Positions 7,987 to 61,129 of a stretch of DNA of 64,000 nt are shown one piece after another. Position 1 is the stretch's first letter, and every line of letters starts with the position of its first letter. This DNA is from Siphonodentalium dalli (Eukaryota; Mollusca; Scaphopoda; Gadilida; Siphonodentaliidae). The translations under genes were made by a program, and so were the position numbers. The notes under the pieces are model-generated. The model was not told the DNA's origin. It ran no database searches and saw nothing but the letters and a program-made list of their open reading frames with translations. The DNA lies in contig CP136063.1 of assembly GCA_032622095.1 (NCBI GenBank), positions 277,009,426 through 277,073,425 of the forward strand, written 5' to 3'.

Positions 7987-8001
7987 TACTTTATTTTTCA
8001 G

Positions 8002-36420: not shown

Positions 36421-36899
36421 GATATTCTACATCTTACTTATTTCTGTTAAATCTGGTACGTGTTATATCACGTATATACCGTGTATTCCTGTTGTCTATT
36501 TGATCCTCACATATATGTTGTCCTACACTATAATGTGTGTTAAAAGAACATTAAAACGTAGCTTACATCATTCTGTCAGCTTTAACAGTACGGAGGAACT
36601 TGTGGCCCCTAGTACGCACAAATGGTAGGGAGATGTATACATCTTGGTGGCGGATTTTGTATAGCATGACCAGCTAGGGAGGAGAATATTCTTCTTTGTT
36701 GAAGGGTTTGCCAATTTAGTGTGTGGAGCAGATCTGTTATGTTGTCTCTGTCGTCGCTACCATAACTCGTTTTCATGATTACCCGGATGTAACTCTGCGA
36801 GTAGTAGTTCCGGTCTGAGAGACCGCTTTGTTTACATTCGCACAACACGCTTCTCGCTCAATCAATCGCTCGTTTATTTTCAAATTGTACGGTAAAAGT
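36421..36899. other. Upstream region of the SWIM/YqaJ gene
   Basis: No ORF of interest. The left end of the transposon should lie in or near this stretch, but I could not find a terminal inverted repeat shared with 43621-43808 by eye. The open frame extends 24 codons upstream of the chosen ATG. Confidence 0.4.
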
Positions 36900-39800
36900 A
36901 TGCCACCAAAGGCCGATAAAAACATCAAGACACCGAAAACGTACAAGGAGGTTAAGAACCTATCGTATGTTAATTTGTTACGTTTGTGTAAAAGCCAAGA
37001 TCTGCGTGTCACGTACGACGAAGCAGGGAAAGGTGCTATCCCGAGAGACGCTCTCGAAATTCTTGTATGCGATCGCCTAGGAGTGTCTACTGTTGACTTT
37101 AAAGATGGTGTTTCACAACGAGAAGAGAAAAAACCTCGTTTAGACGATCACTGTTTGGACGATAAGGAATTGGTGGAGTTCAAAAAACTAATGGCACCTT
37201 CTGACGTCCAAGCCCTGACTGGCTGGACAAAGACAATTTCTTCACTCCCTGAACTTGACACCAGCACTGTCAAGAAATATCTCCTAAGATCAAACAATCC
37301 AGAATTTTCCAGGGAAGACTTGAAGAGGTATAAGCTTTCAAGACCATATGCACATTTGAAAGCAAAAAACATTCATAATGTTATGGTTAATATGTTGCCA
37401 GAAAGTAAAACATTTTGTGTTGTGAAAGGACAGTGCCTACCTTCACAGAGTACTGAAACCAGAAAAGTAAAATGGCTTCATGTTGTTCTGGACAAATCTA
37501 CAGGGGATCCATATGGCGCATTCTGTGTGTGCACAGTAGGGTAAGTTAAATTAATACTCATTCTATAATAACTGCATGTACTCTACATGTATGTTTATAT
37601 ATATTTTTTCTTCATGCCGTTATATTATTATACAAAGGTATTATCACACTGGTGACACCGCAATCACCATATCAACTTATCAAGTTGATATATGAACATT
37701 GGCGGTTTTAGCGTAAGCTGTTAAGCTCTATTTATATATAGAAATACTTAAATAATTGTATTCTAAATCTATAAATATATGGGTAACGGTAATGTCCATT
37801 TAAGAACTTTTACCTGTACCGGTACATACATTAAGGAATGTGTATCATTTCGACAATGTGTGCCGATTGCTGTTTAGCTTCAAATAAAATATAATGTCAT
37901 GAAAATAGTTCAAAATACATGCAGTAGTACAATTTCTACATGATTAAAGATTTTTACTCCTCGACCGACAAATCAATATTCAATATTCTTGTATCTTTGT
38001 TAGTAAAACATGATATTGATTTATTTTCAGACAAGGACAAGCATGCTCACATGTTGGAGCTCTGCTATTTCTGTTATGTGAACTGATGGCAAGTGGGGAA
38101 GAGCGTCTTAAAGATGATGTTTCATGCACTGACACATTATGTGAATGGACCCAACCAAAAGGGGCACATGTGAACCCACTGGAGGCTCAGGACATTTCAG
38201 TGAAACAAGGTAAACTAGCTGGAATCAGTAGCATCTAGGAATACATTAACAGTTATTCCTTGAATAGAACTACATGTACATTGTATTCCAAATACCACAG
38301 CCTAAATTGCACATGTACTAGTACATGTAGTTCTATTCAATGAATGACTGCTGCATTCCTAGAATCTAACTAATACATATATGTACATGTACCGGTATTA
38401 AAGATGGAATTGTTGAAGATAGTTAAAGGATGAAAAGTCACTAAATATTCAATTCAAATTTTAATTTATAAAATTCATTATCAATACTATCTATGGAATA
38501 CAATTATGGCCACTTCCCAATTTACATGTAGATGTATACAATTTTGAGGTTTTCACAATATTTATATTTCTTTGAAGATGCCATTATATTGATTGCTTTT
38601 TTCAGATGGCACATCAGACTCAGTTCTTCTGAGTGTTTATGCTGGACAAGTGGCACCCACGCTTTCTAAGGAGGATGAATATCAACGTGTGCTGAAACTG
38701 CTCTATGATGTCCGAAACGCTAACCTTGCTTCATCTATGCCACCAATTGTTCATTCTGTCGATTTGAACAAGTTCCGCCCGCAAGCCATGCCAGAACCAA
38801 AATATCAAACCAATTTGGCAGATAAGTATACAGATTATGATCTTCCATACTGTGCAAACATAGAGATCTCTACATACCCAATGCCAGTCTATAAATTCCA
38901 AACCAATCAAATGTTAGTGGATATTAAAGAGTTTGTATCATCCATCACATTTTCAAGTTTTGATATCTGCAAAATTGAAGAGCTGACACGGCAGCAAAGC
39001 TTTAGTGAAGAATGGTTTGAACAGAGGAAAGGTGCCATAACTGCCAGTAAGGTTCGGAAAGTTATAAACTACATGACCAATATCAGTTCATCAAAGACAC
39101 GTGGCAACGCCGATGTTTTGGTTGGGGACATCATGCAATACAGCAATGATCGTGAACTTTATAAAAAGGTACCTGCTATATCATGGGGAATAAAAAACGA
39201 AGCACGAGCTCTGAGTAGTTATCTAGCACAGATGAAACAAAATCATGATGATGTTATGCTGGAAAGACCCGGACTATTAGTACACTCCGAGTTTGGATAT
39301 ATTCGAGCAAGCCCGGATGCATTCATGTCATGCTCATGTCATGGTAAAAAAATTGTAGAAGTAAAATGTCCATACAAGTGGAGAAATGAAAATCTTCATG
39401 AACTTGCGGTCAATGGGCAAATAGACTACATACATTCAGACGAGAACAACCTCTCACTTAAAATGAAAACACGTGGATATCGAGACCAAATCATTGCTCA
39501 ACAAGCTATTTCAGGTGTTTATACAGCGGAAATGTTGCTTTGGTCCAAAAAAGGCATTCTGTTGGTAAACGTGCCATTTGATGAAGCTTATTGGGACAAC
39601 ACAGTTCTGCCCTATTTGAAAGACTTTTTCCTGATGTTCGTAGCACCAGAGATATTAACACATAAATTAGAAAATAGAGATATACTTGCAGCTGATTCTT
39701 CATGTGATGACAGTGTAATTGTTATAAAGTCATTGGCATCAACATCTAACAACCAACAAGTACATGTACATGAATCTGTTTCACCTAGTGACGTTGATTC

Positions 39801-40146
39801 GCAGAGTGCATGTGTGACATCTCATGTTGATTCAGAGGTAACACAGTCAGAAACATTTGTTGACTCAGGAGATGCTGCTTTAATAAATGACAATGCAATT
39901 TTGGGATGTTCGAACAAATGTAGAGACAATAAAGCATCAAATTATTCAAAAGTGAAAGGAAAAACAGTTGAATGTAATATGAATGCTGATGAAAATTGCA
40001 ATCCCGGCACCCGGTACCATCTAATCTGTGAAGGATTCCGAAGATTACCAACAGAAATCAACTGTATGAAGTATGCTTGTATCAAATGCAGACTGATCTG
40101 TTCTGATGAGAACACACTGAAAGAAAATAATGGTTTCTTCGGGTGA
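36900..40146 (+). CDS. SWIM zinc finger / YqaJ-type nuclease protein, 3 exons, 786 aa
   Basis: Exons 36900-37540, 38031-38209 and 38606-40146 have canonical borders (GTAAGT donor at 37541, TTTTCAG acceptor before 38031, GTAAAC donor at 38210, TTTTTTCAG acceptor before 38606). Joined they give exactly 787 codons with one terminal stop. Residues 40-80 look SAP-like (VNLLRLCKSQDLRVT). A SWIM finger CxCx7CxH (Cys209, Cys211, Cys219, His221) spans the first exon junction, followed by CTDTLCEWTQP. The YqaJ domain lies in exon 3: WFEQRKGAITASK (Arg414), GIKNEARAL (Glu472), ASPDAF (Asp511) and VEVKCP (Glu525, Lys527), i.e. the PD-(D/E)xK nuclease core. A Cys-rich C-terminus (YACIKCRLIC) ends the protein. 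Likely the accessory nuclease of the transposon. The alternative, a domesticated host gene, is less likely given the neighbouring transposase. Confidence 0.88.
38230..38370. repeat. Foldback in intron 2 of the SWIM/YqaJ gene
   Basis: CATCTAGGAATACATTAACA ... TTGAATAGAACTACATGTAC at the left pairs with GTACATGTAGTTCTATTCAA ... GCATTCCTAGAATC at the right. It probably is a small MITE inside the intron and does not affect the splice sites. Confidence 0.75.
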
Positions 40147-40173
40147 TGTAATTTACTGTGAATTCATTATTCA

Positions 40174-40390
40174 TACAGTAATGCCCCAAGTAATTGACCA
40201 CTTAACCACAGCAGAATTATGGGTAATTTTCCAGGATTTAGTCGGAAATATGGCTTGTTGCCATTCATCGGAAAGCTCTCGCCGAGAGCTTTCCGATGAA
40301 TGGCAACAAGCCATATTTCCGACTAAATCCTGAAAAATTACCCATAATTCTGCTGTGGTTAAGTGGTCAATTACTTTGGGAATTACTGTA
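40174..40390. mobile_element. Tc1/mariner-like foldback MITE
   Basis: TA at 40174-40175 and 40389-40390 flank a near-perfect 213-bp palindrome with ends CAGTAATGCCCCAAGTAATT; the centre at about 40282 is GCTCTCGCCGAGAGC. TA duplication and CAGT ends fit Tc1/mariner. It begins 27 bp after the stop codon of the SWIM/YqaJ gene. Confidence 0.85.
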
Positions 40391-40391
40391 T

Positions 40392-40545
40392 TTAAAGGTA
40401 CTCAATCCGATAAAACTCCTCTCAATTACTATTTCAATGGCTTCGGGGGTCAAAAATATTTGATTCGAGTCGAGGAAGTCACCCATCAAAGCTCAGATTT
40501 GTTAGATATCAATTTTAGAAATCTATTATTTTTCATTGAGGTCAC
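40392..40545 (+). mobile_element. Family K MITE fragment (left half)
   Basis: TTAA at 40392-40395, then AGGTACTCAATCCGATAAAA and the usual GGCTTCGGGGGTCAAAAATA and AAAGCTCAGATTTGTTAGAT words. The right half and second TTAA are missing. It starts 1 bp after the Tc1-like MITE's TA. Confidence 0.8.
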
Positions 40546-40978
40546 CGGAGAGTGAATTTAGTGCTGCTATCCCACACAGCAGGCTATCATTACCAAATTC
40601 ACTCTGTGGGGACCTAATTCTGCTTAGGCCTCATCTTCTGGGAAGTGTCCATTTTTCCCTTCTGAGAAGTTTCTATATACCCTAATTTGCAGAAGAAAAA
40701 ATGCATGATCAATCATCATGGTGACTAATGGGTGAAAATCACCAACTTAGATCTGTCTCCTTTTGCAGTAGATAATGCCATGAATCTCTACTCTGTATAA
40801 CACAGAGTAGAGATTCGTGGCATGATCGACTACATCAGTTGAGACCTAACGGTAAGCAGTCTAGAATGAGGTTCCCAGAGTGTGAATTTGGTAATGCCAG
40901 CTAAACTCACGCTCTGATGACATCATTCTGAAAATGACAAGACACTATTCGCAGACTTGAGTCCAATTGAAATTTTAT
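40546..40978. other. Intergenic DNA between the two convergent transposon genes
   Basis: No ORF. A short inverted repeat (CATGAATCTCTACTCTGT / ACAGAGTAGAGATTCGTGGC) lies at about 40779-40824, and two related GTGAATTT(A/G)GTAATG-type segments near 40550 and 40880. Confidence 0.5.
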
Positions 40979-41060
40979 TTAAAGGTACTCAATCTGATTT
41001 GATGGTCGCCATATAATCAGATTCCAACAACAATTTGTTTTTAAATGCCGCTCCAGCTAT
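40979..41060 (+). mobile_element. Family K MITE end fragment
   Basis: TTAA at 40979-40982 followed by AGGTACTCAATCTGATTTGA and CAGATTCCAACAACAA, as at 59343-59395. No matching right end nearby. Confidence 0.6.
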
Positions 41061-41261
41061 CGCTATTGTTTAATTGTCCAAATATAATGTTAACATGCTA
41101 TTATACATGTATTTTGTGTTGATACTGGTACTATATCTCACTCATTGCCAAGAGATATATGTATTTCCTCGGGAAATTATTCATTTCTCTCGCCAACTCA
41201 TGAGATATTTTCGATATAAACTAAAAAAATAGAACTCTCAGACCACATACTTTTACATGAA

Positions 41262-43620
41262 TCAAGACTGTTTGATTGGACTCTGGAAATTAACTAGATA
41301 AGCACAAACAGTAAAAACTTGTTCAGCTATATCCTTCATAGAGAGTTTAAGTTCACCATCAAGAATATGGTAAGTTTTTATTCTCTGGATCGCACGCTCA
41401 ATATGTATGCGAACTCTGGATATTTCCTCCGACATCACAATTTCATCAGATGACAATTGTGGTCGGTTCGGCCCTTTGAAAGAAGGCATGTACAGTTTGA
41501 CGGCCATCTCATTCATGATGCCGTGAACTAGAAACCCTCGGTCAGCCATAACAGCCCTTTTGCTATCCTTGAGATTGTCAAGCAGATCCTTCGAATTAAG
41601 AGTTATATGTTTGTCAGAGGCTCTACCTCCGTACATCCGACTTATGTAGCTGATTCCCATCTGTGGGTTTATTCCAATAAGAAACTTATAAGTATTGTGA
41701 TGCTTGTATGGCGAATATAACTGTTTTTTAGCATCAGGCTTACTTGGATTTTGAATAAATAATTCTGTACAGTCCAGAATCACTTGCACATCTTTATAAG
41801 CCCTCATTGCTTCAGATGTGTTCTCGCTGGTAACAGCTTTTGATGGCAGTTCACAGAGTTGTTTCAGATCAGTGTACATGAGTGTGACCCAGGTGGTAAC
41901 AACTGACGAAACAGTCCCAACAGAAATACTAAACCTCCTTGCTATATCTTCTGTAAGGAGTCCAACTCGCAGTCTGACAATTGTTAGAAAGAATTCATCC
42001 AACAATGATAATTTCCTATTGGGTCCAGATTTGGGTACAGATGAATTATAAGAAATATTTGACATGTCAGTCTGTTGAGGCCCTCGCCAATACTTGACAT
42101 TTTTTGCTCTTGGTTCCAGGTATTCGAATAAGGCGATGAACGTAGCATAGTTGGTGAATCCCGTCCAGAACTGTATTTGTTTTGTGCTATTTTTTATCTG
42201 ATCTAAAGATAATAACTGCAGCTTTAATTGTTCTACATCAAACACTTGCTGCTCAAGTTCAATAATTTTAGTTTGTATTTCTGGCAAATACTGCTTAATT
42301 GAAGAACAATCTTCCATTTGTGTACATATATAGTCATGATCAACAGGCTGTGGTGTCATTTTATTTTTTTTCTCTGCAACTGGTGGGGTGCTGAAAGTCA
42401 ATCGTCTCTTCCGTGGTTGAGGAACAAGCGGGGGTGTTGTCAATATCGCCGATGAATTTTTTGTAGACCTTGGTGTTGGCTCTTTCTTGAAGGTGAAAAT
42501 GGTCGGCATGTAACCTGGGTGGGATGGTTCATGACCTTTAATACCTGAAAAAGTATGAAGAACAAAATTCAAATACATGATACTTGATAGGTAACTGGTA
42601 TTGGCTACAGTCACAACTTACATGTATAGTGTACATGTACACAACCGGTATTGAATCTATTATTTTAGTATAAATTGCTAAACATTCATATATTCTTTAA
42701 CAAAAGTCATTGTTTGTTTTTATTCCCACTACTTGCCATTTGATCTTCATGTAACCAACCACTGACTTAATCCAATTAGCACCTAAATAGCTACTCGGCG
42801 GCTGACTCCAACTACAACTTTTAGTGTGCCGGTGAACAAAAAATGTCGATAAAAGTTGAAATATAAGACTTTTCAATTACGACAATAAACAAAATTGAAA
42901 ATCCCAACTACATCTTTTACTGGGCTCAGACTCGGACTACAACTATTAGTCTGTCCCTGTAGACCTACCTCTGCTACCGTACACCAGTCTGACAGTGCAT
43001 GTACATTGTAAAGAAGTTAAAAGAACCTACATTTAGTGATTTACATCAATACAAGTATGCATGTATCCTATTAAATATTATGTTCACCGTCCATGGTCAT
43101 TTACAGTAAATAGTGGTCTCTAAGACTTGTGTGTCCACTGGATCTCTGGGTCCAAAGCCAAGATATGTGTACACTGTTCATAATCACTCACTCAGACTCA
43201 GTTTCACTCAGTCACTATCAGTATCATCAGATTTATCCGAGCAAGTGGTCTCACAAATTTATTCACCAATTTCATGTCATAAAATTACATGTACAAGTAT
43301 ATTTTACCGACTACAACATCAAAATTATTTCATTACTTACCGCCGACGAAGTGATCCGAGCATAGTCTATTCCATGATTGATAATCCCAGTCGTCCCGTC
43401 TGATCATTTTCATCCACAAATCGAATTGCCTTTTGTTCGTTGGGAATCGGTAATAACGGCGCTTTTCGCCCGATATTTTGTCTTTTCCGCTCAAGTTAGA
43501 ACATCCAGGTGCAGCACAATTGCTACCACTGCCATTCTTGCGTCTAAATGCCCGTGGAGATCGCGTTGTTTTACTGTTAGAGCTTGTATTGTCGCTCAAA
43601 AACGTGTTGGTAGCATCCAT
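41262..43620 (-). CDS. THAP / DDE_Tnp_4-type transposase, 2 exons, 520 aa
   Basis: Minus-strand exons 43620-43341 and 42544-41262 are joined across a GTAAGT donor and a TTTTTCAG acceptor, giving exactly 521 codons with one stop. The N-terminal THAP finger has Cys35, Cys40, Cys87 and His90 with FP (59-60) and Trp69; it would bind the element ends. A coiled-coil-like segment follows (about residues 175-210), then a helix-turn-helix (about 273-320, FFLTIVRLRVGLLTEDIARRF). The DDE nuclease has Asp351 in LDCTELF, Asp428 in MADRGF and Glu476 in IHIERAI, with YKFLIGI and RASDKHI between. All three acidic residues are kept. An upstream in-frame ATG at 43785 would add 55 residues; I prefer 43620 because the THAP domain follows closely, but the 61-kb relic covers the longer leader. 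Confidence 0.9.
42545..43340 (-). other. Intron of the transposase gene
   Basis: 796 bp with GTAAGT donor and pyrimidine-rich acceptor on the minus strand. No other feature recognised. Confidence 0.8.
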
Positions 43621-43807
43621 TGGCAAAAATATCCATCTCGCAGAGGAGTAGATTTTTACAAAGTGTAATAAGTAGCTGCATTGAAGCACGTGTAACCGAC
43701 AAGCAGGCGTCGATAGAAGAGGTTTTTCAAGGGAGGTGATAACGTTGTTGAGAATGCGACTCGGCGAATTCCACAGCGAAGCCATAGCCGCATCAGAATT
43801 CGCTGAT

Positions 43808-46475
43808 CGGGTTTGACAATATATTAAAGGTGCTGCCAGAAACCATAGACTTTAGAACTATACATGGAAAACTCTTTGTACTAATAAAACTAAATTGTTA
43901 TGTATCAGATGTAATAATTAAGTTAACTAACTAGGATATATACCCAAAATTGTGTGAAACTAAATTGAAACACATGGTCATGTATAAATATATCGGCCAT
44001 ATACAAGAAAGGAGACAAGCATGCTGCCGAGAACTACAGACCGGTATCTTTAACATCTGTTCCATGTAAAATACTCGAACATATCGTATGTAGACATGTC
44101 CTCAACCATCTAGAGCAACACGAGATCCTCACATCGTTGAACCATGGTTTTCGGCGCGGTTTTTCATGCGAGACACAACTGGCCGTCACCACACATGACC
44201 TACTCCAATCATTTGACAATCGGCGACAAGTGGACATCGCCATCCTCGATTTCTCAAAGGCATTTGACACCGTGCCTCACCGGAGATTACTACAAAAATT
44301 GGAAAACTACGGGATCAGAGGACCACTACTGAGATGGATGACATCATTCCTCGTAAACAGAAAAATGCGCGTAGTAGTAGATGGGAAAACATCAAGAGAG
44401 GAAACAGTAGACTCCGGGGTACCACAGGGGACTGTACTCGGTCCATTATTATTTCTATGTCACATTAACGACCTCCCAAACAAGATCCAATCGAAGGTGC
44501 GTCTATTTGCTGACGACTGTCTCCTGTATCGAGAAATCGACAACTTTGAGGACCACCTAGCCATGCAGGAAGATCTCTCCATCCTGGATGAATGGGCCGA
44601 CACATGGGGAATGAAATTTAACACCAAAAAATGCTTCATAATGTCATCCCGGAAAATCACCGACTATTACTACAGACTGAAAGGAGATATACTTAAGGAA
44701 GTACAAGAACACCCGTACCTTGGCCTAACTATAAGCAACACCATGACATGGGACGCCCACATTAGAAATGTTTCCAGGAAAGCAGCATGCACTCTTGGCT
44801 TCCTGCGAAGAAACATACGACACTGCTCAGAGGACTGCAGAAAAATGGGCTACATATCGCTGGTCAGATCCATCATGGACTACGCAGACACCATCTGGGA
44901 CCCCTACCAACAAAACCACATCGACAAGCTGGAAAGAATCCAGCGTAGAGCAGCCCGGTTCATCAAAAGAGACTACAAAAGCAAAGAAGACGGATACATG
45001 ACCAAGATCCTCCACGAGCTAGATCTACCAACACTGAAGAAACGGCGAAAAATAAACCGACTGGGATTCATGAGTAAGGTGGTGGGCGGATTGGTCCCGG
45101 CTATACCCCCTAATCAATACTTTACACCCGAAACAAGGCGTCTTAGATCGCAAAGCAAAATTCTGACAGGCTACGTCACCAGCCAAATTCCTCGACACCT
45201 AATAAGAAACAACAGTCAGTGCTACGAGGCAATACCATACGTGTCAGCTCAGTTCGCTAATTCCATATTTGTTAGAACTATATGCGACTGGAATCAGCTG
45301 GAGGAATCCTTAATACTACAACAACAGCCTGTGGATTCCTTCAAGAGTGCGCTGAAGGAAAATATCTGAGACTCTCTCGACCGCTGCGAAATTACCAGAA
45401 TTGGGATCTGCAGCGGAAACCATTCAGATTCAGAGTGTCGAGGAATAGATGCCGTTGATCCCAGATGACTTAAAGGGGTACACATAATTTATAAGATCAA
45501 TAAAGAGCGTTTCTTATCAGCTCAGATGCAGCTCGTGGACTATTCCTCCTCGATGACCACTATTCCTATATGTTCGACAAGAACATCTGTGGCTGGATCG
45601 AAGTCAATCTACGTGCATGCACTTGACCAGCTAGTAAGAATAGCCACTAGGCCCTATCGAGTTTGACAATATATTAAAGGTGCTGCCAGAAACCATAGAC
45701 TTTAGAACTATACATGGAAAACTCTTTGTACTAATAAAACTAAATTTTTATGTATCAGATGTAATAATTAAGTTAACTAACTAGGATATATACCCAAAAT
45801 TGTGTGAAACTAAATTGAAACACATGGTCATGTATAAATTGGAGTGTCGAGGAATAGATGCCGTTGATCCCAGATGACTTAAAGGGGTACACATAATTTA
45901 TAAGATCAATAAAGAGCGTTTCTTATCAGCTCAGATGCAGCTCGTGGACTATTCCTCCTCGATGACCACTATTCCTATATGTTCGACAAGAACATCTGTG
46001 GCTGGATCGAAGTCAATCTACGTGCATGCACTTGACCAGCTAGTAAGAATAGCCACTAGGCCCTATCGAGTTTGACAATATATTAAAGGTGCTGCCAGAA
46101 ACCATAGACTTTATAACTATACATGGAAAACTCTTTGTACTAATAAAACTAAATTTTTATGTATCAGATGTAATAATTAAGTTAACTAACTAGGATATAT
46201 ACCCAAAATTGTGTGAAACTAAATTGAAACACATGGTCATGTATAAATTGGAGTGTCGAGGAATAGATGCCGTTGATCCCAGATGACTTAAAGGGGTACA
46301 CATAATTTATAAGATCAATAAAGAGCGTTTCTTATCAGCTCAGATGCAGCTCGTGGACTATTCCTCCTCGATGACCACTATTCCTATATGTTCGACAAGA
46401 ACATCTGTGGCTGGATCGAAGTCAATCTACGTGCATGCACGTGACCAGCTAGTAAGAATAGCCACTAGGCCCTAT
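43808..46475 (+). repeat. Tandem 410-bp unit, three copies, first one containing a LINE fragment
   Basis: The unit runs from GAGTTTGACAATATATTAAA through ACATGGTCATGTATAAAT, then GAGTGTCGAGGAATAGATGC, AATAAAGAGCGTTTCTTATC and CACTAGGCCCTATC. Copies 2 (about 45657-46068) and 3 (about 46069-46475) are nearly identical. Copy 1 is split: its left part is 43808-43988 and its right part begins near 45429, with the LINE reverse transcriptase between. The right part of the unit contains the LINE 3' tail followed by sequence like the adjacent 155-bp satellite (AGCTAGTAAGAATAGCCACT). Confidence 0.9.
43990..45369 (+). pseudogene. 5'-truncated LINE reverse transcriptase (Jockey/CR1-like)
   Basis: The frame is open from about 43996 (YKKGDK, NYRPVSLTS at 44002-44055) to a TGA at 45367-45369. 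RT motifs are in order: HGFRRGFSCETQL, AILDFSKAFDTVPH, GVPQGTVLGPLLF, catalytic FADDCLLY (about 44506-44530), WGMKFNTKKC, YLGLTISN, and the C-terminal VQRR-type box IQRRAARFIKRDY followed by the usual LPTLKKRRKINRLGFMSKV. The endonuclease and ORF1 are missing, as expected for 5' truncation at insertion. No internal stop or frameshift in what remains, so the insertion is young. Its 3' UTR would be the GTGTCGAGG...AATAAAGAGCG part of the tandem unit. Confidence 0.88.
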
Positions 46476-48340
46476 ATATAGTCATCCGGGGTGTTGAGCC
46501 TATATACATGTAGTATATAGCCAGTTGCACTAGTCAGTATAAGCTAGTCATAGTATGGTTATTTAATAGGACTATCGGTATATATGGGCAGTAATATTAA
46601 TCAAAGTAGCTAGATATGGTGGACAGTCCATAGAGCAGACTAGTACGAATATCCAATATAGCGAACCATGGCGGAACGTCTAACACCATGTACATTAGTC
46701 ACTGCTGTGATAGGATAATCATATATAGTCATGGTGGTTATTCCGTATATATATGGACAGTAATATTGGTGAATGTAGGTAGTCAGGGTGGATAGTATAA
46801 AATTCAAGGTAATGCGACTAGTCACTATATAGCTAACCAGGGTGCATGGTGAGTCCACCTAGTCAGTACATTAGTCACTATATCTATTCATGGTGGTTAT
46901 TCAGTAGGCTATATGGCAGGTAATATTGATCAATGTAGCTAGCTATGGTGGCTAGTCTATACAGCAAGCTAGTAAGATTCGTCACTGTAGCTAAACATGG
47001 TGATGAGTAAATCAAGCCAGTTACATTAGTCATTATAGCTAGTCATGGTGGTTATTCAGTATATATGTGCAGTAAAGTTGACCACTATAGCTAGCTATTA
47101 TGTACAGTGGCTTGTCTATCTATCCAGCAAATAAGAATTTTCACTATACCTTACAAGGGTGATGAGTCCACGAAGCCAGTTAAATTAGTCACAATTATAG
47201 ATAGTCATGGTTGTTACTCAAGGAGTAATAATGATCACGGTAGCTAATAATGGCGGATAGTCTGTCTAACCAGCTACTAAAATGTCACTCTATAGATAAC
47301 CACAGGGTGGTAAATCTATCTAGCCAGTTATATTAGTCACTATATCTAGTGGTGGTGGTTATTCAGCATAAACGCACAGTATGCCGAAAGCTATGTATGG
47401 TGGATATTTTATACAAACAGCTATGAATAGTAGTTACTTTAACTAACCAGGGTGGTAGTACTATCTAGCCAGTTACATTAGTCACTATAGCTAATCATGA
47501 TGGTTATTTAGTAAATATGGGCAGTAATATTTATCAATTTAGATAGCTCTGGTGGATATTATATAAAGCATGCTAGTAAGATTAGCCTCTGTACACAATA
47601 AGGGTGATAACTCTATCTAGCCAGTTAAATTAGTCACAGTTGCTAGTCATGGTGGTTATTCAGTTGATCCTGAGAGTAATATTGATCAATATAGCTAGCA
47701 ATGGCGCATGGTCTATCTAACCACCTACTTAAAATTGTCACTATAGCTAACCGGGGTGATAATTCTATATATGCAGCTACATTATCCACTCTAGCTAGAA
47801 ATGGTGGTTATTCAGTATGCACGTGCAGTAATATTGACCAAGGTCGCTTGCTATGTGGATAGTCTATATAGCAAGCTAGTAAGTGTAGTCACTATAGCTA
47901 GCCAGGGTGGTAAGTCTATATAGCCAGTGAACATTAGTCTCTATAACTAGTTTAGTGGTATTCGGTTTATATATATATATATACAGTAATATTAAGAACT
48001 ATAGCTAGCTATGGTGGCTTATCTATCTATAGCCAGCATGTATAAATAGTCACTATGTCTTACAATGGTTATGAGTGTATCTAGCCAGTTACATTAGTCA
48101 CAATGGCTAATCTAATCATGATGATTATGTAGTCTATATAGGCAGTAATATTCATCAATATAGCTAGCACTTGCAGATATATCTATCAATCCAGCTAATA
48201 ATCATAGTCACAATAGATAATCATGGTGGTAAGTCTATCTAGCGAGTTACATTAGTCACCATACCTAGTCATGGTGGTTATTCAGTACATATTGACAGTA
48301 CTATTGATCAAAGTAGCTAGGTATGGTGGATAATATATAC
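46476..48340 (+). repeat. Degenerate 155-bp satellite, about 12 copies
   Basis: The motif AGTCATGGTGGTTATTCAGT recurs at about 46727, 46887, 47045, 47202, 47354, 47505, 47645, 47800, 47953, 48115 and 48268, i.e. every 140-162 bp. It alternates with GCTAGTAAGATTAGTCACTA and ATCTAGCCAGTTACATTAGT words. A lone inverted unit lies at 60178-60345. Confidence 0.9.
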
Positions 48341-48343
48341 AGA

Positions 48344-50279
48344 AAATGGGTATGTGCCTATATCGTTGGAATCTGGGCATATAATATGGATGTTGGGGTA
48401 TATATGTACCCTCATACATCTGGACATGACTCAGGTATAGTTGACTTATGTTTTCACTGCACGGGCTCCAATTTGGGGTTCAAACATTTAAGGGCCCACC
48501 ATAGAAAATGGGTATGTGCCTATATCGTTGGAATTTGTGCATATCATATGGATGTTGGGATATATATGTACCCTCATGCATCTGGACATGACCCAGGTAT
48601 AGTTGACTTATGTTTTCACTGCACGGGCTCCAATTTGGGGTTCAAACATTTAAGGGCCCACCATTGAAAATGGGTATGTGCCCATATCGTTGGAATCTGG
48701 GCATATAATATGGATGTTGGGGTATATATGTACCCTCATGCATCTGGACATGACTCAGGTATAGTTGACTTATGTTTTAACTGCACGGGCTCCAATTTGG
48801 GGTTCAAACATTTAAGGGCCCACCATAGAAAATGGGTATGTGCCTATATCGTTGGAATTTGGGCATATAATATGGATGTTGGGATATATATGTATCCTCG
48901 TGCATCTGGACATGACTCAGGTATAGTTGACTTATGTTTTCACTGCACGGGCTCCAATTTGGGGTTCAAACATTTAAGGGCCCACCATAGAAAATGGGTA
49001 TGTGCCTATATCGTTGGAATTTGGGCATATAATATGGATGTTGGGATATATATGTATCCTCGTGCATCTGGACATGACTCAGGTATAGTTGACTTATGTT
49101 TTCACTGCACGGGCTCCAATTTGGGGTTCAAACATTTAAGGGCCCACCATAGAAAATGGGTATGTGCCTATATCGTTGGAATTTGGGCATATAATATGGA
49201 GGTTGGGATATATATGTATCCTCGTGCATCTGGACATGAGTCAGGTATAGTTGACTTATGTTTTCACTGCACGGGCTCCAATTTGGGGTTCAAATATTTA
49301 AGGGCCCACCATTGGAAATGGGTATGTGCCTATATCGTTGGAATCTGGGCATATAATATGGATGTTGGGGTATATATGTACCCGCATGCATCTGGACATG
49401 ACTCAGGTATAGTTGACTTATGTTTTCACTGCACGGGCTCCAATTTGGGGTTCAAACATTTAAGGGCCCACCATAGAAAATGGGTATGTGCCTATATCGT
49501 TGGAATTTGTGCATATCATATGGATGTTGGGATATATATGTACCCTCATGCATCTGGACATGACCCAGGTATAGTTGACTTATGTTTTCACTGCACGGGC
49601 TCCAATTTGGGGTTCAAACATTTAAGGGCCCACCATTGAAAATGGGTATGTGCCCATATCGTTGGAATCTGGGCATATAATATGGATGTTGGGGTATATA
49701 TGTACCCTCATGCATCTGGACATGACTCAGGTATAGTTGACTTATGTTTTAACTGCACGGGCTCCAATTTGGGGTTCAAACATTTAAGGGCCCACCATAG
49801 AAAATGGGTATGTGCCTATATCGTTGGAATTTGGGCATATAATATGGATGTTGGGATATATATGTATCCTCGTGCATCTGGACATGACTCAGGTATAGTT
49901 GACTTATGTTTTCACTGCACGGGCTCCAATTTGGGGTTCAAACATTTAAGGGCCCACCATTGAAAATGGGTATGTGCCTATATCGTTGGAATCTGGGCAT
50001 ATAATATGAATGTTGGGATATATATGTATCCTCATGCATCTGGACATGACTCAGGTATAGTTGACTTATGTTTTCACTGCACGGGCTCCAATTTGGGGTT
50101 CAAACATTTAAGGGCCCACCATTGAAAATGGGTATGTGCCTATATCGTTGGAATCTGGGCATATAATATGAATGTTGGGATATATATGTATCCTCATGCA
50201 TCTGGACATGAGTCAGGTATAGTTGACTTATGTTTTCACTGCACGGGCTCCAATTTGGGGTTCAAACATTTAAGGGCCC
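48344..50279 (+). repeat. 162-bp satellite, 12 copies with 972-bp higher-order repeat
   Basis: The unit starts GAAAATGGGTATGTGCC and ends TTTAAGGGCCCACCAT, exactly 162 bp long. Copies 1-4 carry the same diagnostic variants as copies 7-10 (for example TTGTGCATATCATATGG in 2 and 8; TGCCCATATCG and TTTTAACTGC in 3 and 9), so a six-unit block of 972 bp was duplicated. The unit is a multiple of three and keeps one frame open for long runs (48323-48667, 48710-49639, 49682-49963), broken by TGA at copy junctions. Confidence 0.95.
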
Positions 50280-50450
50280 ATTTTCTATGGTGGGCCCTTA
50301 AATGTTTGAACCCCAAATTGGAGCCCGTGCAGTGAAAACATAAGTCGACTATACCTGAGTCATGTTCAGATGCACGAGGGTATACACATATAGATGTTAG
50401 GACACATTTGGAGCCTCTTGTATCTGGGCATGACTTAGGCATAGTTGACT
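50280..50450 (-). repeat. Inverted terminal unit of the 162-bp satellite
   Basis: Directly abutting the last plus unit, TTTTCTATGGTGGGCCCTTA and following sequence is the reverse complement of the unit, diverging after about 110 bp. It makes a perfect-arm palindrome with the preceding copy. Confidence 0.9.
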
Positions 50451-51409
50451 TCAGTTAATTTAGTTATTTTTTTTAGATAAAGATCACCTGTTTCGTGACA
50501 CCCTCGGGATATCTTTAAAGTTGATAATACATGTTCTTTATTGCTAAGTGTTAGTGCCCTTTTAACTTTAAGTCGTATGCGGTCGAAGGCAATTATCTTC
50601 ATATATTTGCCAGTCGAAGGGGGGTAACTCTATAATAAAATATTAACTATATTTATCGCCAACGATTCTCCCATCAGTTCGGACGCGTCCATGTTTTCCA
50701 CTCTGGATGGGACATATGATGCACACATGCTCCTGGTGTGCCAGACTCTCACTGTACACTCAATTTCACAACACAAGTATTAAATCGATTGTTATTGACA
50801 TTCTGAGCGTGATTAATTTATTGGCGACTTTTCAATGATATCTATGAATTTTGCCTCTGTTTTTTGCATTGACTTCAGTCTGCTGACTTGCGATTTTCTA
50901 TCGGAAAGTAATACAGTACAAGAAAACTAAGATGCATGCATCAGGTCGGCCGTGAACTATCAACCATAGAATTGTTGTAGCTATCGATTATACATTTTGA
51001 AACACCTGTCTGTATGTATGTATGTATGTGTGTATGCGTGAATGCATGTGTGTATGTGTTATAGACTCTAACACTGCTCGAATTTGGTATTTAACGTGTC
51101 AACTTGACCTCGCTCATAGGCATGTTTCTGGACCTTGACCGATCCGACTAAAAATTTGTGTGTAGGACTACTTCGATCCCGGGAGCAATATGGACGGGTC
51201 CAATTTCACGTGGGACCATGTTCTCGAACGTGCTGATATAGGCATGTTTCTGGACCAATTGAACAATAGTTTGGCCAGACGCTGTATATACTGGGTACTG
51301 TCCAGATGGAGGCGATCACAAAAAAAATCCCTAACTAGCCCGAACGAAGTCGAGTACATCAGCTAGTTTAATATATATTTTGGACATTTGTCTGTCTGTT
51401 TGTCTGTTA
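50451..51409. other. No gene; (GTAT)n microsatellite at about 51012-51058
   Basis: CTGTATGTATGTATGTATGT with derivatives. A GGCATGTTTCTGGACC word occurs twice (51118, 51240). Nothing else recognised. Confidence 0.5.
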
Positions 51410-51855
51410 GCTATGGCCGGGAAAACTGCCGGACAGATTTGACGAAATTTGATACCTAGGGGAAATTATTTCCAGGGAGTATTTTGGACGGGTCAAATCT
51501 TGATCCCGACCTGACTTTGACATTCAAAAAGATCAATTCAAGGTCAAATCTGGTAAAACGGAAGTATTTCAACGAAATTTGATACCTACTGTTACTTTTG
51601 TCGCAGGAGTGTTTCGGGTGGGTCAAATCATGACCCTGATCTGATCTTGACATTCAAAATTGTCAATTCAAGGTCAAATCGGGTATAAAGCCGGGCGGAT
51701 TTCGACGGGTACTTTTGTCGTGACTTTTGTCCGGGGAGTGTTTTGGACGGGTCAAATCGTGACCCCGACGTGACCTTCACCTTTAAAATAGTCAATTCAA
51801 GGTTAAATCGCGCATTTCTTCGAAAATCAGAGGGGAACATCCCGGACGAAGTGGG
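51410..51855 (+). repeat. About 130-bp tandem repeat, three degenerate copies
   Basis: GACGGGTCAAATC / GTGGGTCAAATC recurs at about 51487, 51618 and 51748. Each is followed by a TGACCCCGA...TTGACATTCAAAA segment and TCAATTCAAGGTCAAATC. Confidence 0.85.
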
Positions 51856-53790
51856 GTCCACGAGCTACTATTATATATTTCTAGATTTAGTTACAAACTA
51901 AATACCTGTATATTGTACAAAGAAATGTTTGACAAATATATCTGTATCAATATTACCATACGGGTCATTAAAATAGATACGACGAAACAAATTTTGAAGG
52001 GTGCATGTATCAGGTAAATTTTTATATTTCAAATGATGACAGGAATGCAGAAAGTTGAAGTACCTACGTAATACTGGCTATCCGCATGAAGAGATATACA
52101 TGTATATAACGAGAGGCCAATCACGATCGGCAGATGTTTAACCCATACCTTGGCGATAGCGACTAGCCATAACTGATAATTTGTCAAAGATATGATCACA
52201 GGAATTAATCCATATATCAGTACCCAACTTGAAATCAAAAGCTCAAATAATTTGTCTTAAGAAAAGGTTAAAGTATTTGGGTTGGGGAGGAGTAGTTTTA
52301 AATCTCATAACTCTGTCCCTATTCACACAAGGACCTCTCACTGTGAGATCCAATGGTTTAGTGATTTCGGAGGACATGTTTAGGAGTTTAAGTTAACTCA
52401 TTGGAAGCAAAAGTGATAAATCCCTAACTTTGCCACTTTTGACATGCCAGATATTCAAAATTTATTATTCACTTCTAAAGAGAAATTATAATTGTTGACT
52501 GCTTAGAACGACATATATGTAGGGGATTCCATCTCGTATTTAAATGGTACTTTAATTACCCCCCCCCCTTCCCCCATTCTCCCCAGTTATTTTGTTTATC
52601 AAACATGGACAGATATAAGATCAGATCTGACCTGTGTATTAAATAAGATTAAGTGTTTCATAACAGGGGTGTATGGTTTTCAAAAATATATGTAGTTTAT
52701 ACAATTCAAAAGTATTATCTATATAATGTTATACAGACATAATATGATGGGGATGCTGGCCCCTATGACCACTAAATCGTTCATATAAAAGAAAGTAAGT
52801 TAGCCCTCATTTGAATGGTTTCACACATTACAATGTTTTACAAGTAGCTTGGGCACTAAAAGCCACAACCTTCAATGTTAATCTTCTAAGTGCTCTGTGG
52901 CCCCTAAAATTCAATCAACCATGAAAATGTGAACAAATGGGAAAATAAGGTTCCTGGAAATACTAACATCTACCATATTGATTTTCAAAACAAGTCATCA
53001 CTTACAATAGTCATGTATATTTATCTTCCCATTGCATAGATAAATCATATTGGCTATCAGCTGTTGTTTTAATTTCAAATTGAAAGCACGTGTCTGAAGG
53101 GTTAATATATTTTTCAAAAATCAATTAATCAGTCAATACCAAAATTGATAGAAGTGAATAGTGTGCCAAGATACCCAATAGATATTAAGAGATATGAGGA
53201 AGAGTCCATGTACATTATAGCATGTGTCTATGGAAACCTTGGAAAGGGTTAATTATTTTTGAAGCAAATTAATAGAATTTAGAAGACACTTATATAGGTG
53301 AGGGGTGCCCTTATCTCACCCTGTAATGAAATTTCAAGAATAGGAAAAACACCAGTCTTGTGCTGCCATTAATCAATTTGACAGTTAGAATAAACAAACA
53401 GCCAACCACCAGTGTTGTTTATCTTGCTTGACCCACCAGAGCTCTGTATCATATGTCATCACTCATTTCATAACAGATTTCACTTGCAATGACAACATCT
53501 ATAAAAATCCTCTCATATACTCTGGATGTTGGATGATCACATGGTAATTTATTGATATCATTATATTACATGAAACTATTGCAATAAAATCTTCATATTT
53601 TCAAAACAGGATATCACACCTAATTAATCGTAAAAAACTAAAATAAATGAAAGCGTCAATTTTTTTTATTATTTAAATTTTTTTTTTATTGTTATTATTA
53701 GTTCAAACAAAATTTAATATTTGTATATGCTAAATTTAGCAAGGAGCTAAATCTAAAAAAATTTAATTTAAAAAAAACAAAAAAACAATT
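51856..53790. other. No gene recognised
   Basis: AT-rich DNA with a C-tract at 52559-52568 and poly-T/poly-A stretches at 53660-53800. I see no frames with motifs. Confidence 0.5.
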
Positions 53791-53799
53791 CTCATTTTT

Positions 53800-54114
53800 T
53801 TTTCTCGAAAAAGGGTCGTAACTCCTTTAAAATTAATCGGATCAAACCCATATTCGAACTCGGTCTGTATTTTGGGCTGTGAAACTCACATACCAAATTT
53901 GGTTCCAAAAATGTTTGAGTTATGGCAGAATGCGTGAATTCTAAGTTGAAAAATGGCCATAACTCTGTAACAAAATCTCGGATCAAACCCAAATTCGAAC
54001 TCGATCTGTATTTTGGGCTGAGAAACCCATATACAAAATTTGGTTTCGATCGGATAAAAAATGTTTGAGTTATCGCATTACTCGTAAAGTGTCTACGGAC
54101 AGACAGACAGACAG

Positions 54115-54149
<35 letters not shown>

Positions 54150-54215
54150 GACGAACGACGAGTGGTCAATCCGGGCAACGACACTATGTTTACCATACTA
54201 TGGTATGGGTAAACA
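53800..54215. mobile_element. Pearl/Helentron-like repeat with two 138-bp units and a GACA tract (tentative)
   Basis: Two tandem units share CGGATCAAACCCA, TTCGAACTCG, CTGTATTTTGGGCTG, CCAAATTTGGTT and AAAAATGTTTGAGTTAT (53830-53945 and 53970-54080). They are followed by a (GACA)n/(GACG)n microsatellite (54098-54160) and a hairpin CCATACTATGGTATGG (about 54192-54207). Tandem core, tetranucleotide tract and terminal hairpin are the layout described for mollusc pearl elements and HINEs, but exact ends were not identified. Confidence 0.5.
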
Positions 54216-55420
54216 TAAAAACCAGATGAGGGATATGTCTGTACAGTTGCTAAACAATTCAGTCATGCAAAAGAGGATCAAAGAGTAAGATACCAAATTG
54301 CTGCCTGTGGTAATGTTTTTTAACGAAATTCGGGAAAATTAGATTACTCTCACCCTGGTTATCCAGAAGATAATTGTGGAATCTGATGACGATCGGACAA
54401 GGGTGTCGTCTGTAGGATCACCAAATTATTTAGCCATAAAAATAGTAAAATTGAAGATCACCGCTGGCAGTGATGTCTTCACAAGGACAGTTTGAGAACA
54501 AAATATGGCTTACATCTAGCGGTGACCCAAAATATCCACATAAGAAAAAGTTCTCCAATAAAAGCTGGCTGCAGAGTGCGCCAATTGATTCAAATTCGAA
54601 ATTTAGCAGGGTGTACTGCTTGTGGCCATGTTTTCCCCGCAAATTTGATAGACTGATGGACAAAACCACTGAATCCGTTGAATCAATATACATGTATACA
54701 TGGATTAATTTATATGCATTGTTATACACAGTACTGGTATATAAAGGTACTGAAAATAACTATATTACTAGTATACACAAAATAAACCATATATCATGGC
54801 TATGGGTTCTAATATCCGAACATGACAGCTGAGAACTTGGTGTGAATTAAAGAGTGGTGGTTTCTCAAGCATTTCTAACCCTCCACGTTAGCAACATGCC
54901 ATTAAATGTCATAAGTATAATCTAGCTTGAGGACAGAAGTGATCCATAAAACCCCCCTTAATTCAACCAGGTCCTCGCGCGATGTATGATCGATCACATG
55001 ATGATCTAGGGGGATTAGAATTGATGTATAAAAACAGCACTGCATGTAAATATAAAATAAAATAGTGCTACATCTTATTACAGATTATTGCCATATATAA
55101 TCAGTGATTATACAGACAGTCTGACAAAATAAAGTTTCAGTGACACTCTATCCGAAGAGGGGAATAATTTCATCTGTTACAGTCAATGGAGCAATTATGA
55201 ATCTGGAAAGGTGAAATTTCTAAGTAATACTAGATATCGACATGACGCGATAAAATATAACGTAAATGCAATATGGCCGCTGGCGACCATTTTTTCCTAT
55301 GAAATTAAAAAAATATTTGATAGCTCTCATCTGATAAATCAATATCAAGATAAATATGAAGTTTGGTGATGATCGGATGAGTGAAGTGGACTGTGGTCTG
55401 TGCTAAACGGTTTAGTAATG
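54216..55420. other. No gene recognised
   Basis: Small frames only, for example 54470-54832 on the plus strand, without motifs. Two GATGATCGGATGAG/GACGATCGGACAAG words (54390, 55370) suggest old related repeats. Confidence 0.45.
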
Positions 55421-55735
55421 CTTAAAAAGATTCTTACCTTAATATTTTTATGTTCACTTTATAAACTTCACTGAGTCATCTTTGTCATGTATTGAGTTTG
55501 ATATCTTTTGTTAACAGTTTATATATCATGTATGTCTCATGTTTGTTATTTTAATTTATGTGTTTATTATCATTAAATAAAGTTGCATTCCTTAAAAAGA
55601 TTCTTACCTCAATGTTTTTATGTTCACTTTATAAACTCCACTGAGTCATCTTTGTCATGTATTGAATTTGATATCTTTTGTTAACAGTTTATAAATTATG
55701 TATGTCTCGTGTTCTTTATTATATTATATACACTT
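55421..55735 (+). repeat. 170-bp tandem duplication
   Basis: CTTAAAAAGATTCTTACCT begins at 55421 and 55591. The copies share ATGTTCACTTTATAAACT, CACTGAGTCATCTTTGTCAT and TTTTGTTAACAGTTTATA. The first copy ends with AAATAAAGTTGCATTC, which looks like a retroposon 3' tail. Confidence 0.85.
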
Positions 55736-56965
55736 TATAGTGTGTTTTCAGAACGAAAAAAATTTGAATAAAATCAACAAATTTGTAAATTTAAAAACAA
55801 TTCAAACGTTGTTGTATTCCATGTCCCAGCCCGGACATATACACCAAATTTCAATAATATTCATTGAGAAACAACGGACCAAACGCTATATAACACCCGT
55901 ATACATCTTTTATTCCGAATCGGACTCGGGTACATGTTATAGTAGGTACCGAATTGACACACGTCGACTGGGCGAGTTGGCCATGGGGCGATTAGGCCGA
56001 TTCCGGCACATTCTATAATTTACCGTATGTATCCGTTTACGCGTAGTTTACTTTAGAAAGTTCCGCAATTAATACCGTAAATAGAGCGACCTTATTTGAC
56101 AGAGAATGCCTCTGTTATTGATTATCAAGTTGCTGTACATTAAAAACGACAAATTCACATGCTCGTTCAAGCGCAGTAGTCTATTTTCCCCATGTTAAAG
56201 GACATCCACAAATACTAAATAACGCTAACCTACTGCCGAATGTTTGACACGACAACTGTTAACATATTTGGGCTGAATTCATCTGACGCGGTATTATTCC
56301 TCAAAATAAACAACAAAACCATCGTTACTTGGAAATGTAGTTTGGGCTAACATTTACATAAATCCTCCAGATCAATTATCCGACACACACGTCAGATGAA
56401 AAAGTCACATGAAGTAACCGGCCAAATTGGCCGAAATAACTAATAAAAACTTCTAAGCACGCAATCAGTACTTTTGTAGCACATGCCGTTATCTATACGT
56501 GATAGCACTATATAATTAATATTGATGTCACTCTTGCACGGCTTAGTAATGCTATTACAATAACATTTTGTGACAAATAGTGATTAACACAGCAATTAAC
56601 ACGGGGCTAATTTCGAGGGTTTATAGTCGAGTGCGGAGCGCTAAGATTGTGCGTCTGTATTTTGTGTTTAGCGTTTGAGTTATTCCTTTTGCAGGACAAA
56701 CGAAAAGATTCGATAAAAACGAATTCCGTAAAAGGTTTATATCGGATCGAATCATTACGGCGGTTTCGAATCGAACCGAACCTCGAACGGTTCACAGGGG
56801 ACTATTTTCTGTGTAGGTGCGTCCAAACTACCCACCTCCTCTATATAACATAGCTCAGGAGTAAAAACCCTGAACTATATTTCAACTATTACATTAATAC
56901 TATAGTTGCACAGTTGGTTTAACTTGACACTAAGTGGTGACCCTATATATACAATTTGGGCTCCC
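55736..56965. other. No gene recognised
   Basis: Frames at 55698-56018 and 56647-56853 are open without recognisable domains. Confidence 0.45.
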
Positions 56966-58050
56966 CGGACATATGGGCAGCCAAATTAACATATACTCAA
57001 ATATTTGGAGATATCTCTAAATATTTGGAGATATCTCTAATTCATTTGGAGATATTTTCAAATAAATTGCAGATATCTCTAAATCGATTTGGAGAGCTCT
57101 TCAATTCATACCCTAACTATTTAGGACATCAAAGCATTTGAAGATATCTCTAAATATTTGGAGATATCTCTAATTCATTTGGAGATATTTCCAATTATTT
57201 GGAGATATCTCCAAATATTTGAAGATCTCTTCAAATCATTTAGAGATATCCACAAATGCATTTACAGAAGTATATTCGATTTATCCACTTATCCATAAAT
57301 CATTTAGAGATATATCCAATTCATTTAGAGATATCTCCAATGTATTTAGAGATATCTCTAAATGATTTGGAGATATTTCCAATTGCTCTTCTTATTACGG
57401 ATAAGTACTTATTTGAGGAGAAGTACAAATCATTTAGAGATATCTCTAATTCAATTTGGAGATATCTCCAATTCATTTGGAGATATCTCCAATTCATTTG
57501 GAGATATCTCCAATTATTTAGAGATATCTCTAATTCATTTGGAGATATCTCCAAATAATTAGAGATATCTTCAATTCATTTGGAGATATCTCCAATTATT
57601 TGGAGATATCTCCAAATATTTAGAGATATCTTCAACTGAATTAGAGATATCTCCAAATATTTAGAGATATCTCCAAATCGAATTATGGAGAAGTATTTAT
57701 TTACGGATATGTCCAATTGTGGATATGTCGATTTAGAGATATCTCCAATTCATTTAGAGATATCTCCAATTCATTTAGAGATATCTCCAAATGATTAGAG
57801 ATATCTCTAAATAATTTGGAGATATCGCCAATTATTTGGAGATATCTCCAAATCGAATTATGGAGAAGTATTTTATTTACGGATATGTGACATATGTTCA
57901 AAAAGAACTTAAAAATGAGTCAGATTCCAGGTTCAATTATGGATATGTGCTGATTTAGAGATATCTCCAAATCATTTAGAGATATCTCCAAATATTTAGA
58001 GATATCTCCAAATATTTGAGTATATGTTAATTTGGCTGCCCATACGGACA
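56966..58050. mobile_element. 1.07-kb foldback transposon made of GAGATATCTC subrepeats
   Basis: A perfect 6-bp direct duplication CGGACA (56966-56971 and 58045-58050) flanks terminal inverted repeats beginning TATGGGCAGCCAAATTAACA and continuing ATACTCAAATATTTGGAGAT. Nearly all the interior is an irregular array of 16-24-bp subrepeats, each centred on the palindrome GAGATATCTC with TTGG/CCAA or TTAG/CTAA arms, so most of the element can fold on itself in many registers. Internal blocks with TCGAATTATGGAGAAGTATT occur twice (about 57677 and 57852). There is no real coding capacity; LEISPNxLEIS-like frames on both strands are repeat artefacts. Confidence 0.88.
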
Positions 58051-59160
58051 TACCTATGTTGAGATTCGGTATGATCAGTCTAAAAATCCTGGTTTCTATA
58101 TAGAGGAGACTGGACTTATAAGACGACTGCTTTCCCACATTGTTCGTTCTGATTTGGTATAGCACCCAATAACGGTGAATAACCGTCGCGCCATGCATCA
58201 TGCATGTAATACATAGAGAGTCCACAAACAAAAAAACGATGCACAGTAAGAGGAAACCAGTGATCCCACACACTCGTTTATGAGTCAAAACTAAAAACAT
58301 GTCAACCATCAACTCTATATTTCAATGAACTCTAAGCTTCCAAAAGCGCACATTCGCATTATAATATGTGTTAACTAACATTTAAGCCACAAGTTCGGGA
58401 GATGGGTCAGTGTGTTGATGGTCCTTTCATAGTTTTCTGTGCGGCGAAATTGTCTATGAATTTGTCCCCATGTCTATGAATTTGTCCCCATGTCAAGTAT
58501 TTCTATTGCAATCAGAGCAAGTCAATCTGGTTGTTCATGCCAAATGGTAGATCGCAAATATGTTTTGATCAGTTGCAACTATGTAGTCTGCATATATGAC
58601 ATTTCAAGGATATACCAACTGGAGATCAAATACATACACTGTGAACAATAACAACATATGCAATGTTTTATAATCAGTATACACTTACCTTTAAAAATAC
58701 AATGTCCACAGAGCACCTCGTGGCTTCTATATAGTAATATCTTTGAAGAATGCGGTATTCATTATATTGAATCTGTGTTACAGGAAGTATGTAAATTATC
58801 TTAATGTGTTATTTGATAAGCATTACATTACAGACTGGATTCAATCTCACATGATGCCATTTGCTCACACTGAGCCCAGGCCCCTTATCAGCTGTGACAT
58901 TAATGTGTTTCTCTTATTAATACCAGGTGACAACCTCTCCCAGAGCTCACCAGTCATACTTCCTTTCTTTATTATTACCGAGACGAGTCATCAATGGAGG
59001 TAAACCCTGCATGGAGCTTGACCAGGTGGTTGGGGGGTTGGTGTATTGCTGGCGAGAATCAACATGACATACACTGCAATACTATTAAGAAAAGCAAAAT
59101 GTATTGCAACTTTATAACATTTACAAGACAGAATCTGCGCTGGTGCAGCATTAAAGATCA
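58051..59160. other. No gene recognised
   Basis: A 20-bp duplication (TGTCTATGAATTTGTCCCCA) lies at 58453-58492. Small frames only. Confidence 0.5.
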
Positions 59161-59215
59161 TGTGCCAATACATTATGTTGTATATGCGAGTGTGCCATAT
59201 ATATGATAGACTCGC

Positions 59216-59254
<39 letters not shown>

Positions 59255-59278: not shown

Positions 59279-59338
59279 GCCAAAAAAAATGCAGAAATCT
59301 CCTGTAAAAGAGAGTTAAAGAACATTAATTCGGTTCAG

Positions 59339-61115: not shown

Positions 61116-61129
61116 AAAAATCGATATAT

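Follow-up and report, generated by a model that had tools for sequence, protein, structure and literature searches.

Our analysis of a 64,000-nucleotide stretch of the genome of the scaphopod Siphonodentalium dalli (hereafter the window; C3:277009426-277073425, in a genome of 2.23 Gb in 9 contigs) indicates with high confidence that it holds a young, low-copy transposon of the ISL2EU group (PHIS superfamily) which has moved recently, and that the frames of this copy are open but the transposon itself has been split by a later 17.5-kb element with terminal inverted repeats (TIRs), whose insertion point lies two bases upstream of the ATG of the transposase. The transposon carries two convergent genes, one for a nuclease with a SWIM-type motif and a YqaJ domain (36900-40146, plus strand) and one for a transposase with THAP, helix-turn-helix (HTH) and DDE domains (43620-41262, minus strand). 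An initial annotation, made from the sequence, had described them as an apparently intact ISL2EU-like transposon. The affiliation stands, given the THAP/HTH/DDE and YqaJ genes and the AT duplications at four copies; intactness does not, the right end lying 17.5 kb away past the nested insertion (Table 1).

Table 1. Positions of the split element, its genes, its target and the nested insertion in the window; the last row gives loci elsewhere in the genome
Feature	Position	Strand	Remarks
Target repeat, left half	36571..36764		92.8-94.3% in 4 repeat copies (L010, L011, L012, L016), running gapless into right half
ISL2EU-type element, main part	36765..43622		left end ACTCGTTTTCATG; left boundary common to copies holding it
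Left subterminal stretch with GTAGTAGTTCCGGTCTG	36795..36824	+	inverted counterpart close to right end
Nuclease exon 1	36900..37540	+	start codon; first half of SWIM motif
Nuclease exon 2	38031..38209	+	second half of SWIM motif
Nuclease exon 3	38606..40146	+	YqaJ / lambda-exonuclease-like domain; Pfam and profile match to solved lambda-type exonucleases
Palindromic miniature repeat, 219 bp, in intergenic spacer	40173..40391		inverted arms; many genome matches
Transposase exon 2	41262..42544	-	HTH_Tnp_4, DDE_Tnp_4, stop
Transposase exon 1	43341..43620	-	start codon, THAP
9-bp duplication CATCCATTG, left copy	43614..43622		contains transposase ATG (minus strand)
Nested element, 17,478 bp	43623..61100		inverted ends GC..ATCCRTCTCGCAGAGGAGTAG; relative L040 has same ends
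9-bp duplication, right copy	61101..61109		matches left copy
Displaced right terminal 76 bp	61110..61185		ends ACTGT; 98.9% to L001 right end over 89 bp
Target repeat, right half	61186..61243		extent is that of alignment without long gap
Fused Mutator-YqaJ loci	L022 C8:25.3 Mb, L023 C1:141.2 Mb, L024 C3:26.2 Mb, L029 C3:126.1 Mb		single open frames of 765-990 amino acids

Ends, target and copies of the element

Four other copies that hold the left end, together with the fragment L009, extend 76 bp past position 43622, where the window copy diverges from them, and these 76 bp are present in the window at 61110-61185. The composite 36765-61185 is absent from the target repeat in all four of the other repeat copies examined. 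In a genome search for the element ends, in which every first-look candidate was scored (10/10 left, 6/6 right), we found seven left ends at 97-100% identity and three at 85-88%, and six right ends at 88-100%; both ends are present in five copies, the window included, and these end matches comprise no short derivative with both ends (the fetched loci L043 and L044 were used for ends alone, and L017 was unused).

All of the copies L001-L004 have an AT on either side (4/4). When the flanks of L002, the copy for which joined flanks were covered among these four, are joined with a single AT, all 40 candidates that were scored align with them over the junction at 96-100%, and are thus empty sites. 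This copy, on C9, has both frames open and both ends together in about 6.97 kb. The genome comparison thus yielded near-identical copies on other contigs, their ends and AT duplications, which together with the empty sites for L002 and for the window insertion sustain the recent activity that the initial annotation had suggested.

Most of the element is held by six copies (the window and L001-L005), on which our counts of divergence and frame state are based, the fragments L006-L009 being left out; the divergence counts exclude indels and the 219-bp miniature repeat. Compared with L001, the window copy has 8 substitutions in 6622 sites; compared with L002 it has 16 in 6626, so that the divergence is 0.1-0.25%. 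Of the six, the window copy and L002 are the two that retain a pair of open frames. In L001 the nuclease gene lacks 11 bp and a stop interrupts the transposase; the nuclease gene of L003 has gained 2 bp, stops break both frames of L004, and L005 is badly decayed. Across the 15 copy pairs the ratio of non-silent to silent change (pN/pS) of the transposase is 0.06-0.55, with few changes, as expected for a lineage maintained by transposition.

Several observations weigh against a recently moved ISL2EU element. No clean AT duplication borders the window insertion: CCATA stands on its left and TATATC on its right, against CCATAGTTGTATC in the empty copies, and these flanks fit a TA duplication with a 4-bp difference in the target or, equally, no duplication, the latter being possible because the element's final GT also fits the GT of the target. 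The target context given for ISL2EU in the excerpted text of PMC4482050, AT with A on its left and T on its right (A/AT/T), is absent, with A on the left in 2/4 copies, T on the right in 0/4, and A after the right AT in all four (L001-L004); we treat this context as a preference and not as defining for ISL2EU. The terminal repeats are poor, with imperfect ends ACTCGTTTT and ACAGTGTTTT and a start in AC rather than the usual GG. Finally, nuclease pN/pS is 0.49-0.71 in the 12 of 15 pairs that show over two changes (a further two pairs have two silent changes only, and the last has no change), which is weak as evidence of selection. The comparison of copies that the initial annotation had proposed as dN/dS, run here as pN/pS, thus gave the expected picture for the transposase and weak evidence for the nuclease.

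Near both ends, an inverted motif TTCCGGTYTG is found, likely the binding site of the transposase. We propose that the THAP-HTH-DDE protein would bind this subterminal motif at both ends and cut and paste the element. In the window copy, expression of the transposase from the element's own terminal promoter would probably have been lost, and the copy may be mobile only with transposase supplied in trans or with a promoter from the nested element.

The transposase frame survived the nested insertion because the nine duplicated bases include the ATG. A relative of the nested element elsewhere, L040, has the same inverted ends and, as judged by eye, its own 9-bp duplication GTTTGTTTG. Mutator-like elements (MULEs) have duplications of about 9 bp, TIRs and a MULE transposase; the nested element shows two of these traits, the 9-bp duplication and the inverted ends, and no transposase was recognised by eye among its open reading frames (ORFs) of at least 110 amino acids, with the Pfam scan covering the reverse transcriptase ORF only. 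This ORF lies at 43969-45369 (RVT_1, 1.8e-34), and from 48342 onwards about 12 units of 162 bp are repeated in tandem. Paired ends suggest relatives of some 6.5 to 20 kb, of which one (L040) was read.

L001 (C1:271.5 Mb; flanks 1-664 and 7588-8201) lies within a C2H2 zinc-finger coding array, and its joined flanks form a 157-amino-acid open frame across the junction. The 219-bp repeat is a near-perfect palindrome, its arms 97% complementary, and another member of its family is found some 12 bp from where L003 has its left end.

The two genes and their exon joints

Both spliced frames close, at 786 amino acids plus stop (787 codons) for the nuclease and 520 plus stop (521 codons) for the transposase, and the two nuclease introns and the single transposase intron are all bounded by GT/AG, as the initial annotation had it. 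Open frames alone are insufficient to fix the joints because many GT/AG choices keep them open: 24 combinations give more than 750 amino acids for the nuclease and 10 give more than 480 for the transposase. On comparative grounds our joints are nevertheless supported. Each of the three introns retains its GT and AG in the window copy as well as in L001-L004, a CxC..CxH motif recurs whole or split in relatives of the nuclease (see below), and the spliced transposase matches 87 of 87 THAP positions, against 58 for the exon ORF alone.

Pfam recognises DDE_Tnp_4 (1e-40), HTH_Tnp_4 (4.5e-14) and THAP (3.1e-12) in the spliced transposase and YqaJ (E 1.4e-13) in the spliced nuclease. The residues named in the initial annotation were all located by string search: the THAP C2CH set at 35-90 and D351, D428 and E476 in the transposase, and D511, E525 and K527 in YqaJ, both triads being, by their motifs, presumably catalytic. 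A PDB search with the single transposase sequence returned nothing at E<=1. The SWIM CxCxnCxH set fared less well, since the motif CVCTVGQGQACSH is there at residues 209-221 of the nuclease but Pfam SWIM (PF04434) has no match to this protein at E<=1, and none of the 34 places listed in a genome scan with Pfam SWIM is the window nuclease gene. Thus the search with hidden Markov models matched THAP, DDE_Tnp_4 and YqaJ and left SWIM unmatched.

To place the motif we read the translations of 20 other YqaJ loci, picked from the genome-wide YqaJ matches by long frames or diversity. CxC..CxH is whole in seven of them (L019, L020, L025, L027, L028, L031, L032) and seemingly split by an intron after CxCxxG, at the same place as in the window, in five (L021, L026, L033, L034, L035); L037 has the second half only, and the remaining seven (L018, L022, L023, L024, L029, L030, L036) have no such motif. 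Leaving aside four loci in which YqaJ is fused to a transposase, the motif is present, whole or split, in 12/16. The strict uninterrupted form, seen in 7/20 loci, occurs 0.03 times per 20 in base-shuffled sequence (100 rounds). Pfam SWIM matched one of six relatives at E 0.11, under the cut-off.

Judged by its profile, the nuclease is lambda-exonuclease-like. A profile built from the YqaJ domain of the window nuclease and those of eight loci (9/9 matched by Pfam YqaJ) finds, among solved structures, LHK exonuclease (3syy, 1e-24), lambda exonuclease (1avq, 3.2e-14) and protein R354 (3.2e-14), which we take to be a mimivirus protein. The likeness to the lambda and LHK enzymes lies in this match and in the D...ExK and Q residues, the aspartate and ExK being retained in 21/21 rows of the YqaJ alignment (the window and the 20 loci; read from the alignment); the difference is that those are phage-type recombination enzymes, whereas here a predicted nuclease with a SWIM-type motif is found in a eukaryotic transposon. 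When the window nuclease was searched against the PDB as a single sequence, a weak match to YqaJ (E 3e-4) came up beside one row that looks like chance (E 0.17), and single-sequence structure prediction of the YqaJ region gave a mean predicted local distance difference test score (pLDDT) of 32. One relative, L019 (C3:68.8 Mb), has a weak SAP match near its N terminus (1.3e-4, under the cut-off).

YqaJ partners across the genome

For the pairing of DDE and YqaJ, 150 were scored of 328 and of 910 candidates, and an unpaired match does not mean absence of a partner. Of the 150 YqaJ matches scored, at least 67 have a scored DDE_Tnp_4 within 12 kb, where 0.26 would be expected by chance, and the pairs are convergent in 61 cases, divergent in 5 and in the same direction in 1. 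Two-gene elements of the ISL2EU type are therefore common in this genome, and the rarity that the initial annotation had attributed to an intact pair is doubtful: 127/150 scored YqaJ matches have no stop in the matched domain, and within the family two copies of six are open.

A related family at C9:13.42 Mb (L037, L041, L042) has a YqaJ 54% identical to that of the window (51% over 357 codons). Over its first 73 bp it shares 88% identity with the left end of the window element, a stretch found at 85-88% at three other loci, and its right end likewise takes the form ..AGACTGT, with AT on both sides. The termini thus appear better conserved than the coding sequence, which suggests recognition by related transposases. 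Between close relatives of other families nuclease dN/dS is 0.45-0.86 (6 pairs), with silent divergence saturated in four distant pairs, and is again weak as evidence of selection.

YqaJ also occurs joined to a different transposase. In 4/20 sampled loci (Table 1) a Mutator-like transposase (PF20700, 3.7e-66 to 1.8e-82) is fused to a C-terminal YqaJ, the layout given for KolobokE in the excerpts of PMC9587614, where a Kolobok transposase domain is followed by a lambda-exonuclease-like PD-(D/E)xK nuclease and TTAA is duplicated; we infer that these four are KolobokE. In a tree of 21 YqaJ domains the fusions form one clade with support 100, and its joining to L018/L019/L027 has support 68, which is too low for the tree to decide on independent capture. 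As far as that source goes, the window element is like KolobokE in being a DNA transposon with such a nuclease and unlike it in having the nuclease as a separate gene, beside a PHIS transposase (DDE_Tnp_4), and AT duplications; on these three counts we rejected a KolobokE identity for it.

What might the nuclease do? The SWIM-YqaJ protein could act on DNA as a 5'-3' exonuclease, trimming or resecting ends when the element is excised or at the gap left in the donor. One may go further and suppose that it is a dedicated lambda-exonuclease-like recombination enzyme, that ISL2EU elements transpose not by plain cut-and-paste but with end resection, and perhaps with annealing of single strands at the donor gap, and that Kolobok/Mutator-type elements arrived at the same solution by fusion to the transposase; we regard this larger proposal as possible but doubtful. 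The recurrence of the nuclease type in a second transposon group (KolobokE, and the fused forms in this genome) would be the best indirect argument that it matters for transposition. A passenger, or a host or viral nuclease with no part in transposition, seems quite improbable. It is true that the open-access literature searched, in the excerpts seen of PMC9179366, PMC10225492, PMC7826175, PMC9587614, PMC5718144 and PMC12730594 among others, does not treat the role of the nuclease, and that for 83/150 scored YqaJ matches no scored DDE_Tnp_4 lies within 12 kb, though the limited scoring inflates this number (one 'lone' match, L038, adjoins a broken DDE). Against it stand the convergent pairing far above chance, the conserved aspartate and ExK, and the fusions to a transposase in the same genome.

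A cluster at C7:18.8-24.0 Mb (L032, L038, L039) packs eleven YqaJ matches with identical or almost identical scores into about 5 Mb. The pair compared is 99.6% identical over 8.9 kb, with an open nuclease ORF (484 amino acids) and a broken adjoining transposase, and the cluster probably goes back to segmental duplication of an ISL2EU element that was decayed but kept its nuclease.

Place in the ISL2EU group and meaning

In the excerpts of PMC4482050 and PMC9179366, ISL2EU elements of the PHIS superfamily have THAP-HTH-DDE transposase and YqaJ exonuclease genes and duplicate AT; PMC4482050 adds TIRs of 6-259 bp, mostly starting with GG, and an average length of about 4.84 kb. The window element has the same two genes, the AT duplication and a paralogous empty site. 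Unlike those elements it has poorly matched termini starting with AC, a context of AT followed by A (AT/A), a length of about 6.97 kb in L002, and a nuclease with a SWIM-type motif, which the excerpted ISL2EU description in PMC4482050 does not mention. We therefore place it, by its genes and by the AT duplications of L001-L004, as a putative new family of a known group.

Another PHIS group, either PIF/Harbinger (3-bp TWA duplication, Myb partner) or Spy (no duplication), is very unlikely. DDE_Tnp_4 and HTH_Tnp_4 are shared domains, the flanks of L001-L004 can also be read as a 3-bp ATA, with an A after the right AT and an element that starts with A, and the window insertion can be read as one without duplication. 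ATA is not TWA, however, and the A of ACTCG belongs to the element because it is kept in the window beside a different target; moreover, the transposase has a THAP domain and the partner is a YqaJ protein. We rejected PIF/Harbinger on the AT duplication and the YqaJ partner in place of Myb/SANT, and Spy, whose target is AAATTT, on the AT of 4/4 other copies and the empty sites of L002.

THAP transposases have given rise to host genes, and both frames of the window copy are open, but domestication of one or both genes by the host, which the initial annotation had offered as an example of selection, is extremely improbable, with the copy 0.1-0.25% from two others, the same open frames and both ends in place in L002, the start codon of the transposase severed from the adjacent terminal sequence by the nested insertion, and youth alone sufficient to account for open frames. 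The open frames reflect the youth of an ISL2EU copy, because L002 has the same frames and ends and the copies are near-identical, and nothing points to domestication.

More generally, coding intactness can mislead: the frames in the window are perfect, yet a nested element has cut the transposon in two. Because this ISL2EU family is low in copy number and recently mobile, with its ends defined, an empty site known and its termini conserved in a relative, the role of its YqaJ partner is directly testable.

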